Part shown: positions 1,204-13,203 of the stretch, in pieces | How the letters are laid out: each line of letters begins with the position of its first letter | Position numbering within the stretch: the stretch's first letter is position 1 | Assembly (NCBI GenBank): GCA_003598015.1 | Contig: QZKE01000081.1 | Coordinates: 1 to 32,912, forward strand | DNA from: Actinomycetota bacterium | GTDB taxonomy: Bacteria; Actinomycetota; Geothermincolia; Geothermincolales; RBG-13-55-18 | Length of the DNA stretch: 32,912 nt | Direction of reading: 5' to 3' | Program-made: the position numbers and the translations under genes | Notes under the pieces: model-generated | What the model was told of the DNA's origin: nothing | Database searches by the model: none | The model's input: the letters and a program-made list of their open reading frames with translations, nothing else

Positions 1204-2736
1204 TCACGGGGAGCATGATGCTGGAGAATTGAGTTCTCCGCATACACCGCTAAGCTTCGGGTAGATGCGGCGGAAAGCGGCGTAGAGCTCGTCATAGACC
1301 CGGCAGCAGTCCTCACGAGGCACAAAGGTCTTCCTTATACGCACCGCCTTCTTGATCTCCCTGTAAGCATGGTATTCCCCCACAGCCACGGCAGCGGCCA
1401 GGGCGCAACCCATCGCCCCCGCCTCCTGCGGATACTCCACCGCCTCGACGCGGCGGCGGGTCACGTCGGCGACGATCTGCATCCAGACATCGCTCTTTGC
1501 CCCACCCCCTATGGCCCGCAGGGGGTCGCAACCGAAACCAGCCCCGGCCGCCACGTCCAGCAGCCAGCGCAGGTTGTACGCCACACCTTCGTAGACCGCT
1601 CGCAGCATATGGTCGCGTCCGTGCTCCAGGTTGAGATTTAAAAAGGCGGCGCGGATACTGGTATCGGGAACCGGAGACCTTTCTCCGAACATCCAGGGAG
1701 CGAAGAGCAGCCTGCCGGCTCCCGGCTCCACCTTTTCCGCCGCTTCGTCCAGTGCCCTGAAGACGTCCGTGGCCGTCTCCTCGGGGCGCGCGAAGAGCCT
1801 GGCGAACCATTCCAGGCAGGCTCCCGCCGTCTCCGACTCGCCGATCATGATGAACATATCCGGGTCGGCGGAGACCACGGCCGCAATCCCGTTCTTGCCC
1901 AGGTTACGCGGGCGGGATACGGAGATGCAGAGCCAGCTCGAGGTGCCGATGTTGATATGCGCGTCCCCGTCCTCGAGCGCGCCCGAGCCGGTGGCTGCGG
2001 CGGGGATATCGGCCATGCCGGCGATCACCGGCGTGCCCCCGGCAAGGCCCATCTCCCGCGAGGCGGTCTCCCCGAGAGCTCCCACGATATCGATGCTCGA
2101 CCGGATGGAAGGCATCCTGTCCAGGGGCAGTCCCAACATCCTGGCCAGAAAAGGCGACCACTTCCGCGTACGGCCGTTGATGATGCCGGTGCCGCCCGCT
2201 CCCGTATGGTCGATGACCATCTCTCCCGTGGCACGATACACCAGGAATCCCGTAGTGTCGAGAAAGGCGCGCGTGGATGCGAAGATATCCGCTTCGTTCT
2301 CCTGCAACCAGGCCAGCTTGCACACGACGTCCTTGCCCGAGGGGGCGGCCCCTGCGATACGGATGACCATTTTTCTGCCACCGAAACGGCGGATAAAACG
2401 CGCCGCCTGTTCCTCGGCCCGGCTGTCCAGCCAGATGATGGCCCGGCGCAGGGGGGTGCCGCCACCGTCCACGGGTACCACACCCAGCATCTGGCCGGCG
2501 AACCCCACGGCGGCGACCTCAACGGGATCCACGCCGCTCTTCTCCACGAGGCTTCGTGTCCCCGCAGCTACGGCACGCCACCAATCATCTGGATCCTGTT
2601 CCGCCCAGTTCGCGCGCGGATGGTATATAGGGTAGGGCTGGAAGCTGCTGGCGACGAGCTCCCCGCCGGTGGTGGCAATCACGCTCTTGCTTCCACCCGT
2701 TCCCACGTCGTGGCCGATGACGTAACGCTGCAACAT
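1204..2736 (-). CDS. FGGY-family carbohydrate kinase (xylulokinase-like)
   Basis: A 510-residue sugar kinase of usual family length. The N-terminus has the ATPase phosphate motif IGHDVGTGGSKSVI. A central GMADIPAAATGSG and a C-terminal AIGGGAKSDVWMQIVADV followed by QEAGAMGCALAAA match the second FGGY lobe. The family phosphorylates sugars or polyols such as xylulose, glycerol or gluconate; the overall pattern is closest to xylulokinase, but the substrate is not readable from sequence. A GTG at 2742 is in frame but overlaps the Shine-Dalgarno, while the ATG at 2736 has GGGAGG at 5 nt, so 2736 is preferred. No sugar isomerase or sugar transporter is adjacent. The C-terminal tail is short and lacks motifs. 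Confidence 0.9.
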   Translation of the reverse strand: MLQRYVIGHDVGTGGSKSVIATTGGELVASSFQPYPIYHPRANWAEQDPDDWWRAVAAGTRSLVEKSGVDPVEVAAVGFAGQMLGVVPVDGGGTPLRRAIIWLDSRAEEQAARFIRRFGGRKMVIRIAGAAPSGKDVVCKLAWLQENEADIFASTRAFLDTTGFLVYRATGEMVIDHTGAGGTGIINGRTRKWSPFLARMLGLPLDRMPSIRSSIDIVGALGETASREMGLAGGTPVIAGMADIPAAATGSGALEDGDAHINIGTSSWLCISVSRPRNLGKNGIAAVVSADPDMFIMIGESETAGACLEWFARLFARPEETATDVFRALDEAAEKVEPGAGRLLFAPWMFGERSPVPDTSIRAAFLNLNLEHGRDHMLRAVYEGVAYNLRWLLDVAAGAGFGCDPLRAIGGGAKSDVWMQIVADVTRRRVEAVEYPQEAGAMGCALAAAVAVGEYHAYREIKKAVRIRKTFVPREDCCRVYDELYAAFRRIYPKLSGVCGELNSPASCSP

Positions 2737-2742
2737 CTTCAC

Positions 2743-2974
2743 CTCCCTGATTGGACCATGCCTATTGTAACCTCAACGGAGACGCATCACAGCCGCCGGG
2801 ATGGAGCAGATCCACGTTCTCTCCTCCTGTGATTATACCGCTGGTTATTCTCCAAGAAGTGTGGGCAAGGATGACGTCTTATCTCCATCGCTTTGCTGGT
2901 ATCCAGCAGCGAGTAGTTATTTCGTGATTTACCTAATTCTGGGGAAGGAATATACAGGTTGCGGTGGAAAATTA
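2743..2974. other. Non-coding leader region of the FGGY kinase
   Basis: About 230 nt, less GC-rich than the flanking genes, with no convincing ORF on either strand. On the minus strand there is a perfect TATAAT at 2832-2837 about 95 nt before the kinase start. No good -35 hexamer lies 16-18 nt upstream, so the promoter call is weak. Nothing else recognisable was seen. Confidence 0.4.
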
Positions 2975-2982
2975 TATCAGTA

Positions 2983-3083
2983 GGTTCTTCTCTAATAAGT
3001 GTTGGTGAATAGTATGGTGGGGTATAAGTCAGGCCTAGGGGTCAGGCCTGACGGTAGCTACACACATTTCTTGGAGAAGAACC
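2983..3083. mobile_element. MITE-like element with ISL3-like ends
   Basis: A 101-bp non-coding element has perfect 10-bp terminal inverted repeats (GGTTCTTCTC at 2983-2992 and its complement at 3074-3083). Imperfect pairing extends these to about 24 bp per side. The flanks are near-identical 8-bp direct repeats, TATCAGTA at 2975-2982 and TATCAGGA at 3084-3091, as expected for a target-site duplication with one later change. GG-start termini and 8-bp duplications are typical of ISL3-family insertion sequences, so mobilisation by an ISL3-type transposase is the inference. It has no coding capacity and contains an internal palindromic repeat (3026-3052). Confidence 0.62.
3026..3052. repeat. Palindromic repeat inside the MITE, copy 1
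   Basis: The core is an 8-bp perfect inverted repeat TCAGGCCT/AGGCCTGA (3029-3036 and 3044-3051) around a 7-nt loop AGGGGTC. A diverged copy of the same string is at 12051-12080 in the ABC transporter spacer, so this is a dispersed element and not a gene-specific operator. Confidence 0.6.
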
Positions 3084-3306
3084 TATCAGGAGAACGTTGG
3101 AGGTTGTCATACCCAGGGGAGGCATGGTATGGAGATCAAATGCACACGCATCTGCGATGAATGTCCAATTTCCTCCTGTTCGCTGCATCCCAGTTTCCAT
3201 CTCTTTATACAGACCTATCTCAGAGACATGTCGGAGAAGATGCGGCATCGCTAGCCGGGTGATGCGTCCGGCGCCGAATCACACGCCGGCGTTGACGTCA
3301 TACAGG

Positions 3307-3336
3307 AAAAGAGGCGGGATCAGCGCATCCCGCCTC
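3307..3336 (-). terminator. Rho-independent terminator of the SCP2 gene
   Basis: A 10-bp perfect GC-rich stem (3311-3320 with 3327-3336) and 6-nt loop lie 35 nt past the SCP2 stop codon. On the minus strand the stem is followed directly by TTTTCC (A-run at 3307-3310). This is a textbook intrinsic terminator for the SCP2 transcript. Confidence 0.82.
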
Positions 3337-3370
3337 CTCGTCTCATGTCCCGCGCTGCTAGAGCAGGCTG

Positions 3371-3946
3371 TTACATCATCAGATTGCCCAGTGACATCGC
3401 GAAGGGCATGTCTCCCTCGATCTTCAGTTTGCCGGTCATAAACGCAGTGGGCCCGGCAAGCTCACCCTTCTGCATCAGTGCCCAATCCTCGATACCTACT
3501 TTGAAGGTCACCTCGGGGGAAGCTGCGCCGTTGAACACGATCTTCAGGGGGGCGACTGACCCGTCCGCCATGGCCAACTCGACGTTCATGGTGCCGGATG
3601 TGGAATTGAGGGCGTTGTACCGTTTACGGTCCGCCGACTGGCCCATATCCGTGAACATATCCATGGCGCCTTCCATCTTTCCGGTTACGGCTTTGCGCCA
3701 CATGTCCTCGTCCAGCACTACCTTTATCATGGCGTTCTCGAGAGGCCCTTCGCTGACCTCGAGTTCGCTGGCGTCCTTTACCGTGATGCCATAGACGTAA
3801 TCCTGGTCACCCTTGATGTTGAACTCCACGGTGAACATCGTGTCTTCCATGCCCGCGATGCTCGTGCCGGATAGCTGCTCCTTGACCATCTCGGGGACCA
3901 CTTGCTCGAAGTACTCTTGCACGGTCACGTTCTCGGATACTTCCAT
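3371..3946 (-). CDS. SCP2 sterol-carrier-like lipid-binding protein
   Basis: A 191-residue soluble protein without signal peptide or membrane segment. The first 40 residues are acidic; the rest follows the SCP2 pattern of a beta sheet (FTVEFNIKGDQDYVYGITVKD), an AMIKVVLDEDMWRKAVTGKMEGAMDMFTD helix-turn, and a C-terminal helix (MTGKLKIEGDMPFAMSLGNLM) that would cover a hydrophobic tunnel. SCP2 domains bind lipids or acyl-CoA; the ligand here is unknown. The ATG at 3946 has AGGAGG at 5 nt, so the longer in-frame extension to 4006 is rejected. It is monocistronic: its own promoter at 4063-4091 and its own terminator at 3307-3336 bracket it. Confidence 0.86.
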   Translation of the reverse strand: MEVSENVTVQEYFEQVVPEMVKEQLSGTSIAGMEDTMFTVEFNIKGDQDYVYGITVKDASELEVSEGPLENAMIKVVLDEDMWRKAVTGKMEGAMDMFTDMGQSADRKRYNALNSTSGTMNVELAMADGSVAPLKIVFNGAASPEVTFKVGIEDWALMQKGELAGPTAFMTGKLKIEGDMPFAMSLGNLMM

Positions 3947-11240: not shown

Positions 11241-11987
11241 CTAGAGGTGGGAGAGGATCTTGGAAAAGAAATCTACGGCACGGGGGCTCCTCGGGTTGGT
11301 GAAGATATCCTCCGGCGGCCCCTCCTCGACGATAACGCCGTCGTCCATGAAGATTAGGCGGTCCCCCACCTCCTTGGCGAAGCCCATCTCGTGGGTGACC
11401 ACCATCATGGTCATCCCCTCCCGGGCCAGGTCCTTCATGACGTCCAGCACCTCACTGACCAGTTCCGGGTCGAGGGCTGAGGTCACCTCGTCGAAGAGCA
11501 TGAGGTCGGGGTCCATGGCCAGGGCGCGCGCGATGGCCACGCGTTGCTGCTGGCCCCCGGAGAGGTGCGCGGGGTAAGCATGAGCCTTGTCCTTGAGGCC
11601 AACCCGGTCCAGCAGGCGCATGGCCTTCTCCTCCGCCTCCCCCGAGTTGGACTTCCTTACCTTGAGGGGGGCCAGGGTCACGTTGCGCAGGGTGGTCAGG
11701 TGGGGAAAGAGGTTGAAGCTCTGGAAGACGATGCCTACTTTCTGGCGGATAGTGTTGATATCCGCTTTGTGGTCGGTGACGTCGATGCCCTCGACGTAGA
11801 TGTGGCCGCCGCTGGCGTGCTCGAGGCCGTTTACACAGCGCAGCATGGTGCTCTTGCCGGAGCCGCTGGGGCCCACGATCACCAGTACTTCCGAGGGCTT
11901 GACCTTCAGGTTTATACCCTTGAGCACCTCGTGATGGCCGAACCTCTTGCGGAGATCTACGATCTCCACCATGCAATCGTTATTCAT
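11241..11987 (-). CDS. Polar amino-acid ABC transporter ATP-binding protein
   Basis: A 248-residue ABC ATPase of the GlnQ/HisP class. It shows Walker [10 protein letters not shown] at 39-47, Q-loop [15 protein letters not shown], signature LSGGQQQRV at 142-150, Walker [15 protein letters not shown] from 162, and the H-loop [12 protein letters not shown]. It powers uptake of an amino acid together with the permease and lipoprotein encoded upstream on the same strand. The spacer to the permease is 202 nt and contains a dispersed repeat. Start ATG at 11987 is preceded by GGGAGGGG. Confidence 0.95.
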
Positions 11988-12038
11988 GACCCCTCCCGGG
12001 ATACGATCCGCTTTCTCCGGACCATATGTACAATCATA

Positions 12039-12088
12039 TTCTTCTCCGAGAAGTCAGGCATAGGGGTCGGGCCTGGACTTATGCCTGA
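12039..12088. repeat. Diverged copy 2 of the MITE-internal repeat
   Basis: In the ATPase-permease spacer, the string from 12051 to 12080 aligns with 3026-3052 with few changes, and 12039-12053 resembles the left end of the 2983 element. It carries its own perfect 9-bp inverted repeat TCAGGCATA (12054-12062) and TATGCCTGA (12080-12088). No right terminus is recognisable, so it is probably a truncated copy. It could also fold as a hairpin in the transporter mRNA. Confidence 0.5.
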
Positions 12089-12189: not shown

Positions 12190-13053
12190 TCAATCCTTCA
12201 GAGACAGCCGTGTGGTCATGTACTGCACCAACCGCATCAGGGGGATGGTGATGATCAGGTAGCAGATGGCCGCCCATACCAGGGGGGTGACGTTTGCATA
12301 CCTTCCCATCATCTCCTTGCCGCGGAAGAAGACCTCGGCGAGCCCGATGATCGCGACCAGCGCGGTATCCTTGAGGAGGGCGATGAACTCGTTGGAGAGG
12401 GGCGGGATGACGTTCCTCACCGCCTGGGGCAGGACCACGTAGCGCATGGCCTTGAAGTAGCCCATGCCCAGGGAACGCGCCGCCTCCATCTGCCCCTTGT
12501 GGATGGACTCTATCCCGGCGCGGAAGATCTCCGCCTCGTAGGCCGCGTAGCAGACGGTCAGCGCCAGCACGCCGGCCATGAACCGGCTCAGGTTGAGGCC
12601 GAGATATCCCAGGCCGAAGTAGATGACCACGATCTGCAGGATCAAAGGCATGCCCCTGATAACGTCGATGTACACGGCCGCGAAGAAGCGGAAGGCCTTG
12701 ATGCGCGATATCCTAATCAGGGCGATGATGAGCCCGAGAACGAGGATGAACACCTCGGAGACCACGGCCAGTTCGATGGTGACGACCAGCCCCTTGATAA
12801 CGTATTCCCAGGTCTTGGAGAAGATATTCCAGTTCAGGAACTCGTTCAGGAACCTGTCTATGGCCGGCAGCTCGATCAGCAGGGAAACCACGAATCCCAG
12901 GATAAGCACGGCCAAGCCGTTACCGAGCGCCAGCAGGACCGCCCTTCGCTGGTGAGTACGGAGCATCCTGACAACCAGGACGCAGATCAACGCAACCAGG
13001 GCGAGCACGAGGGCGAACCACAACCACACCAGGGCAGGGGGAACGGATTTCAT
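12190..13053 (-). CDS. Polar amino-acid ABC transporter permease
   Basis: A 287-residue inner-membrane permease of the HisMQ/GlnP class. Two N-terminal hydrophobic segments precede the core; FSKTWEYVIKGLVVTIELAVVSE begins the conserved region, and the EAA loop reads YEAEIFRAGIESIHKGQMEAARSLGMGYFKAMRYVVLPQA. It forms the channel for the ATPase downstream. The frame is open to 13146, but the ATG at 13053 has GGGAG at 8 nt and leads directly into a membrane segment, so 13053 is chosen. A terminator-like hairpin lies between this gene and the upstream lipoprotein gene. Confidence 0.92.
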   Translation of the reverse strand: MKSVPPALVWLWFALVLALVALICVLVVRMLRTHQRRAVLLALGNGLAVLILGFVVSLLIELPAIDRFLNEFLNWNIFSKTWEYVIKGLVVTIELAVVSEVFILVLGLIIALIRISRIKAFRFFAAVYIDVIRGMPLILQIVVIYFGLGYLGLNLSRFMAGVLALTVCYAAYEAEIFRAGIESIHKGQMEAARSLGMGYFKAMRYVVLPQAVRNVIPPLSNEFIALLKDTALVAIIGLAEVFFRGKEMMGRYANVTPLVWAAICYLIITIPLMRLVQYMTTRLSLKD

Positions 13054-13203
13054 GGTCTTTCTCCCGTCATATAACTCCTCGCTCGACGTCCGCAAGGAAG
13101 GTTGGCAGGACGGTACTCGCATATACCGGCGAAAGCGCGGGGGCATCTCCGGATACCCTGGTATATGCCTGCATCGCGCCTCCCTTCATCATCCCAATAA
13201 GAA

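Follow-up and report, generated by a model that had tools for sequence, protein, structure and literature searches.

The 101-bp element at positions 2983–3083 of the window, the whole 32,912-nucleotide stretch of Actinomycetota DNA that was analysed, is an ISL3-type MITE, and it is most likely a deletion derivative rather than the founding form of its family. Specifically, we propose, with a probability of roughly 85%, that a MITE mobilised in trans by an ISL3-type transposase came to carry a hitchhiking doublet of an unrelated repeat, and that its short copies arose by deletion. An ISL3 (DDE) transposase acting in trans would recognise the 20–25 bp ends and insert the element with an 8-bp A/T-rich target duplication, and would have amplified the family in this species. 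Many full-size copies are composites, in which a doublet of the repeat that flanks a Y1/HUH transposase gene (of the TIRYT/RAYT kind) lies between ISL3 ends. Deletion between short direct repeats within the doublet, probably by slippage across the palindrome, would shed this passenger, and the resulting short copies, the window element among them, would retain a small palindrome as its scar. The analysis shows the insertion itself, the copy number, the composite architecture, the target duplications at the outer ends of composites and the exact agreement in length of the modelled deletion; we infer which transposase acted on the ends, and a Y1 transposase presumably moved the 35-bp repeats.

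Structure and genomic context of the 101-bp element

The element starts with GGTTCTTCTC and ends with GAGAAGAACC, which match in inverted orientation at 10 of 10 positions, so that the perfect 10-bp termini reported in an earlier note on this DNA are borne out. Its terminal repeats are GGTTCTTCTCTAATAAGTGT on the left (2983–3002, plus strand) and GGTTCTTCTCCAAGAAATGT on the right (3064–3083, minus strand). In line with the imperfect terminal pairing described before, an inverted-repeat search of the window returned arms of 22 nt with 86% complementarity at 2981–3002 and 3064–3085, the sole short-distance pair (61 nt apart) among 14 inverted pairs in the window. The interior is non-coding, as had been stated, in that none of the 114 ORFs of at least 80 aa in the window overlaps 2983–3083. 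The claim of an 8-bp target duplication holds with a correction: the left copy, TATCAGTA (2975–2982, plus strand), and the right copy, TATCAGGA (3084–3091, plus strand), agree at 7 of 8 positions rather than 8 of 8, and the duplication is confirmed by a single copy at the empty site.

This empty site was found by searching 901 bases around the element against 39 genomes (its own and 38 relatives), in which the syntenic locus is that of the sister species G002, a member of the same genus. On contig C30 of G002 both flanks align, the element is absent and one TATCAGGA stands where the window has TATCAGTA, the element and TATCAGGA. The right duplication is therefore identical to the empty-site sequence, and the left duplication is the one with a changed base. 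Additionally, the element belongs to a multicopy family. BLAST of 2975–3091 against its own genome gave 30 matches with E ≤ 0.001, and a 20-base pattern of the ends, searched with at most 3 mismatches, gave 89 + 77 matches (about 166 end sites), against 1 + 1 for the reversed-pattern control. The same pattern has 0–13 matches per genome in the 38 relatives, which indicates an amplification particular to this species among the genomes searched. The element is thus neither unique nor without an empty site. A solitary ISL3-like end, GGTTATTCTCCAAGAAGTGT (2843–2862, plus strand), lies 140 bp to the left without a partner end; the alignment with G002 has a gap over this region.

We regard it as highly improbable that the element is instead kept for a host role, as the leader hairpin or terminator of the small gene at 3129, and is not mobile. 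Its position, 45 bp upstream of the ATG of a conserved 41-codon frame (3129–3254), and its folding as one long hairpin would suit such a role; however, the small frame is also present in G002, where the element is absent, and no promoter-like or terminator-like site lies inside it. In 2740–3400 there are no promoter-like sites, and the one terminator-like site (2892–2913) is outside the element. A host RNA element was likewise rejected, with no Rfam match within 2700–3400 and no promoter-like site in 2740–3400. The frame itself (MEIKCTRICDECPISSCSLHPSFHLFIQTYLRDMSEKMRHR) is Cys-rich, has no Pfam match and is kept in G002.

An ISL3 transposase remnant shares the ends of the family

PF01610 is found in three stretches of the same genome: two neighbouring pieces on contig C50 that belong to a single frameshifted copy, and a C-terminal stub on C24. 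The C50 remnant matches PF01610 at 1.7e-55; both of its pieces match DDE_Tnp_ISL3 and one also matches HTH_Tnp_ISL3, and NF033550 is among the matches of the ISL3 transposase pieces. It adjoins an end, GGTTCATCTCCCAGAAGTGTGGGT, that equals the MITE family end consensus at 22 of 24 positions; a second end of this copy was not found. The C24 stub terminates with GGCTCTTCTGCATTAATTGTGGGT, which agrees with the consensus at 18 of 24 positions. A search of the 89.5%-complete assembly turned up no intact ISL3 transposase, only this frameshifted one-ended copy and the stub. The ISL3-like ends recognised earlier thus have their counterpart beside a transposase remnant, and the copy number, the remnant with the same ends and the empty site together support the reading of the element as a MITE.

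ISL3 relatives in public genomes have comparable ends. Of 80 loci taken, 32 (at least 6 kb) were long enough for an end scan; 15 of these showed ends starting with GGTTC and an identical 8-bp A/T-rich duplication, several of which are runs of A or T and therefore have soft limits, and 17 showed none. The lengths of the 15 elements are 1303–1307 bp in 14 cases and 1109 bp in one, and the matches are from Burkholderiales. In a genome of the same phylum (L076), a complete ISL3-type element has a 25-bp inverted repeat without mismatches and is flanked by the duplication TGTTGAGG. In G018, a genome of the same class, an end at 447 on contig C46 (L317), GGTTCATCTCCCAGAAGTGT, is identical to the end of the ISL3 remnant described above and adjoins an apparent transposase C-terminus, which hints at a wider spread of this ISL3 element.

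Full-size copies enclose a repeat doublet and insert as units

The full-size copies (186–227 bp) consist of ISL3 ends around an inverted doublet of a 35-bp repeat, the main form of which is TCAGGCATAGGGGTCGGCCCTGGACTTATGCCTGA; in copies of 201–227 bp the doublet spacer is about 75–80 bp. A 21-base core of the repeat has 80 + 85 matches in the genome and 0 for the reversed control; the main form as query has 74 + 83 matches there and 0–5 in each of the 38 relatives. We catalogued the copies from 100 of 190 end sites, 100 of 165 repeat sites and the BLAST matches, only part of these listed sites having been fetched. The catalogue holds at least 96 clusters, of which 37 combine the repeat with an ISL3 end, 24 have the repeat only (two of them being the flanks of a Y1 gene) and 35 have ISL3 ends only; these counts are lower bounds because copies whose immediate surroundings were the same have been merged. 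Ends were accepted at 5 mismatches, so that a few may be due to chance, and at this threshold L008 and L044 lose an end and L026 is merged. The doublet lies inside the ISL3 ends and hence hitchhikes with the MITE.

Target duplications were assessed in 31 two-ended clusters, with the pairs picked by end quality alone, blind to the flanks. The duplication matched at 8/8 positions in 12 clusters, 7/8 in 9, 6/8 in 2 and at most 5/8 in 8, so that 23 of 31 reach at least 6/8; in shifted-flank controls, 9 of 930 reached 6/8 and 0 of 930 reached 7/8 or more. The duplications are 73% A+T, compared with 42% in the flanks. The window cluster is among the eight low scorers, since pairing without regard to the flanks had joined the end at 3083 to the solitary end at 2843; the true 101-bp pair gives 7/8. 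Among the two-ended composites, 12 of 16 have duplications at 7/8 or 8/8 and the other four only 2–5 of 8. The composite is thus mobile as one unit, through its outer ends.

The family resembles known ISL3 insertion sequences and the MITEs derived from them in its GGTTC[A/T]TC ends and its 8-bp A/T-rich duplication. Unlike the public relatives of about 1.30 kb, it has no coding part, and its interior is a foreign doublet or a scar with no visible transposase relic. A simple internal-deletion MITE of an ISL3 gene was rejected for the full-size copies, whose interior is an independent repeat doublet; the interior was compared with the ISL3 gene by eye only.

It might be argued that the composites are ordinary ISL3 MITEs with a native central palindrome, and that the 35-bp repeats elsewhere are broken MITE interiors. 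The catalogue lends this some support, as most sampled repeat clusters (37 of 61) also hold an ISL3 end. Nevertheless, 24 clusters have the repeat without a trace of ISL3 ends, and the repeat stands inverted on both sides of a Y1 gene, as do the diverged repeats of its orthologues in relatives, which makes a native palindrome very unlikely. Solo doublets as MITEs with worn ends were rejected by a flank test: the best ISL3-end match in the 60 flanking bases of the repeat-only clusters has 8–12 mismatches, against a median of 10 for random stretches of the window.

A truncated composite lies elsewhere in the window at 12037–12088 (plus strand), where a partial ISL3 end (12037–12053) is joined to one full 35-bp repeat (12054–12088). 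It sits between two minus-strand ORFs, 11241–11987 and 12190–13146, whose translations resemble the ATP-binding protein and the permease, respectively, of an ABC transporter. In four other loci of the genome (L122, L151, L172 and L178) the repeat forms short three-arm arrays, the spacers being about 75 bp in most cases; some of the arms are in direct order, and L122 has a period of 109 bp.

A composite also occurs in G002, for which 12 of 13 end sites and one repeat site were examined. This is L303, 186 bp long, whose duplication matches at 7/8 and whose arms are identical at 30–31 of 35 positions to the repeats of the window's own genome; L310 is a 161-bp candidate around GGGTCAGGTCTTG-type arms with a poor duplication, and L305, L307 and L309 have GGGGTC repeats just inside an end. 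Reloading of a G002 MITE from the repeat of the Y1 gene of G002 itself was rejected, because the composite arm matches that repeat at 26 of 35 positions versus the 30–31 of 35 above. Judged by these identities, common ancestry or transfer of the composite fits better, and the nesting therefore either predates the expansion in this species or was transferred.

The 35-bp repeat accompanies a Y1 transposase gene

An intact gene for a 327-aa Y1_Tnp protein (PF01797, 3e-10) lies on contig C29 (L149, 1468–2451). It has the repeat at 1325–1359 and 1366–1400 (plus strand) upstream and, inverted, at 2611–2645 and 2662–2696 (minus strand) downstream, the outermost with 7 mismatches. The residues H60-Y61-H62 are invariant in four aligned Y1 proteins, and orthologues that are 68% (G001), 65% (G002) and 49% (G005) identical are flanked by their own diverged GGGGTC repeats. 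The survey covered nine Y1 loci, of which three belong to the genome of the window; the partial locus of G012 has repeats on the upstream side only, and at the locus L150 of the window's own genome no repeats were seen. The matches to a C-terminal Bac_DnaA_C-type helix-turn-helix are all under the Pfam cut-off (E of 0.13 for the protein of this genome; 0.0015, 7.5e-5 and, in one case, none for the relatives).

TIRYT genes with TIR repeats and a GGGGWSAS motif are described in PMC3733652, and PMC6006769 places this kind mostly in subclass 2.1. The repeat has the motif as GGGGTCAG in one subfamily (8/8) and as GGGGTCGG in the main subfamily (7/8). Judging from these likenesses and from the repeat-only clusters, the 35-bp repeat appears to be distinct from the MITE and of the TIRYT/RAYT kind. 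Two solo-doublet loci were compared with relatives for empty sites; since their flanks were not syntenic on both sides, it is the dispersal of the inner repeat and its association with the gene that suggest an independent mobility. A second Y1 transposase gene of the genome (L148) has a different inverted repeat, TAGGGGTCAGGTCTTTCATTTTGCATAC, at 906–933 and 2068–2095, and a TAGGGGTCAGGTCTTG stretch also adjoins a composite at C47:7876 (L127).

The window copy as a probable deletion product

Ten short copies were modelled as deletions of five full-size copies. Removal of 126 bp between AGGCCT repeats from L004 (227 bp) leaves exactly 101 bp, is 86/101 identical to the window copy and reproduces its central TCAGGCCTAGGGGTCAGGCCTGACGGTAGCTAC. 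At CCTAGG, L004 minus 133 bp gives L002 (94 bp; 93/94 identical), and at TATGCCT, L026 minus 143 bp gives L024 (83 bp; 80/83 identical). L003 fits the model if one gap is allowed, and L017 if AGGCCT is taken at a different position. The other five (L110, L011, L016, L008 and L007) could not be matched to a clean parent among these five full-size copies. With an identity of only 86/101 to the modelled product, the direct full-length parent of the window copy was not found either.

Given this exact match in length, we read the palindrome at the centre as a scar left when a passenger was lost. This scar, TCAGGCCTAGGGGTCAGGCCTGA, occupies 3029–3051 (plus strand), with AGGCCT at 3044–3049 as the deletion junction, and 3029–3049 match the repeat core with one mismatch. 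The palindromic interior that the earlier note had seen is thus present, and its origin, left unexplained there, now reads as the remains of a nested TIRYT/RAYT-type doublet; hence the 101-bp unit is most likely a derivative rather than the founder. As the 72-bp copy L109 has no repeat scar, this MITE may never have carried the passenger.

Short copies could also result if the Y1/HUH transposase actively excised the passenger as single-stranded DNA, in place of replication slippage. Enzymes of the IS200/IS605 type excise hairpin-bounded single-stranded DNA (PMC6006769). Against this, the three junctions (AGGCCT, CCTAGG and TATGCCT) are different and each is a short direct repeat, which resembles slippage and not cutting at a fixed place. 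We consider excision unlikely; the distinct junctions suggest slippage across the palindrome rather than the cut of one enzyme.

Relation to known repeat families and implications

The Y1 gene and its repeats resemble the TIRYT systems of PMC3733652, in which a Y1 gene is flanked by inverted GGGGWSAS-like repeats and the repeats are single, dimeric or grouped, but here more than half of the catalogued repeat clusters lie with ISL3 MITE ends. The nearest precedent is formed by REP dimers in palindromes in the same paper, namely GTAG-15 of A. variabilis and CGTC-1 of H. neapolitanus. There, too, a repeat dimer is enclosed by a larger palindrome, but the passages concerned do not name that palindrome as a transposable element; in the family described here the outer unit has ISL3 ends and target duplications, one member has an empty site, and some copies lack the passenger. 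REPINs (PMC3116915) are likewise inverted repeat doublets with many copies per genome, but here the spacer measures about 75 bp and the transposase looks like a TIRYT. A literature search confined to PMC, with ISfinder outside its scope, and including the string GGGGTCAGG, REP inside MITE and ISL3 MITEs, returned no REP/TIR doublet inside an ISL3 MITE. The parts and the carrier are of known kinds; what is new is that they occur together, with target duplications, decay products and one member for which an empty site is available.

A composite with two engines, in which an ISL3 DDE transposase acts on the outer ends and a Y1/HUH TIRYT on the inner doublet, with a preference of the HUH enzyme for targets at the tips of MITE palindromes, is a doubtful extension of our account. 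If true, it would explain the REP dimers in unexplained palindromes of other bacteria, and each partner would help to spread the other.

Although small bacterial repeats are usually divided into MITEs on the one hand and REP-type repeats on the other, here one is nested in the other. The hitchhiking of the doublet with the MITE provides a concrete route by which a REP-like family spreads without its own transposase doing the work, and a possible reason for REP dimers lying within palindromes. A further lesson is that a MITE which is small and palindromic need not be the founding form but can have arisen by deletion.
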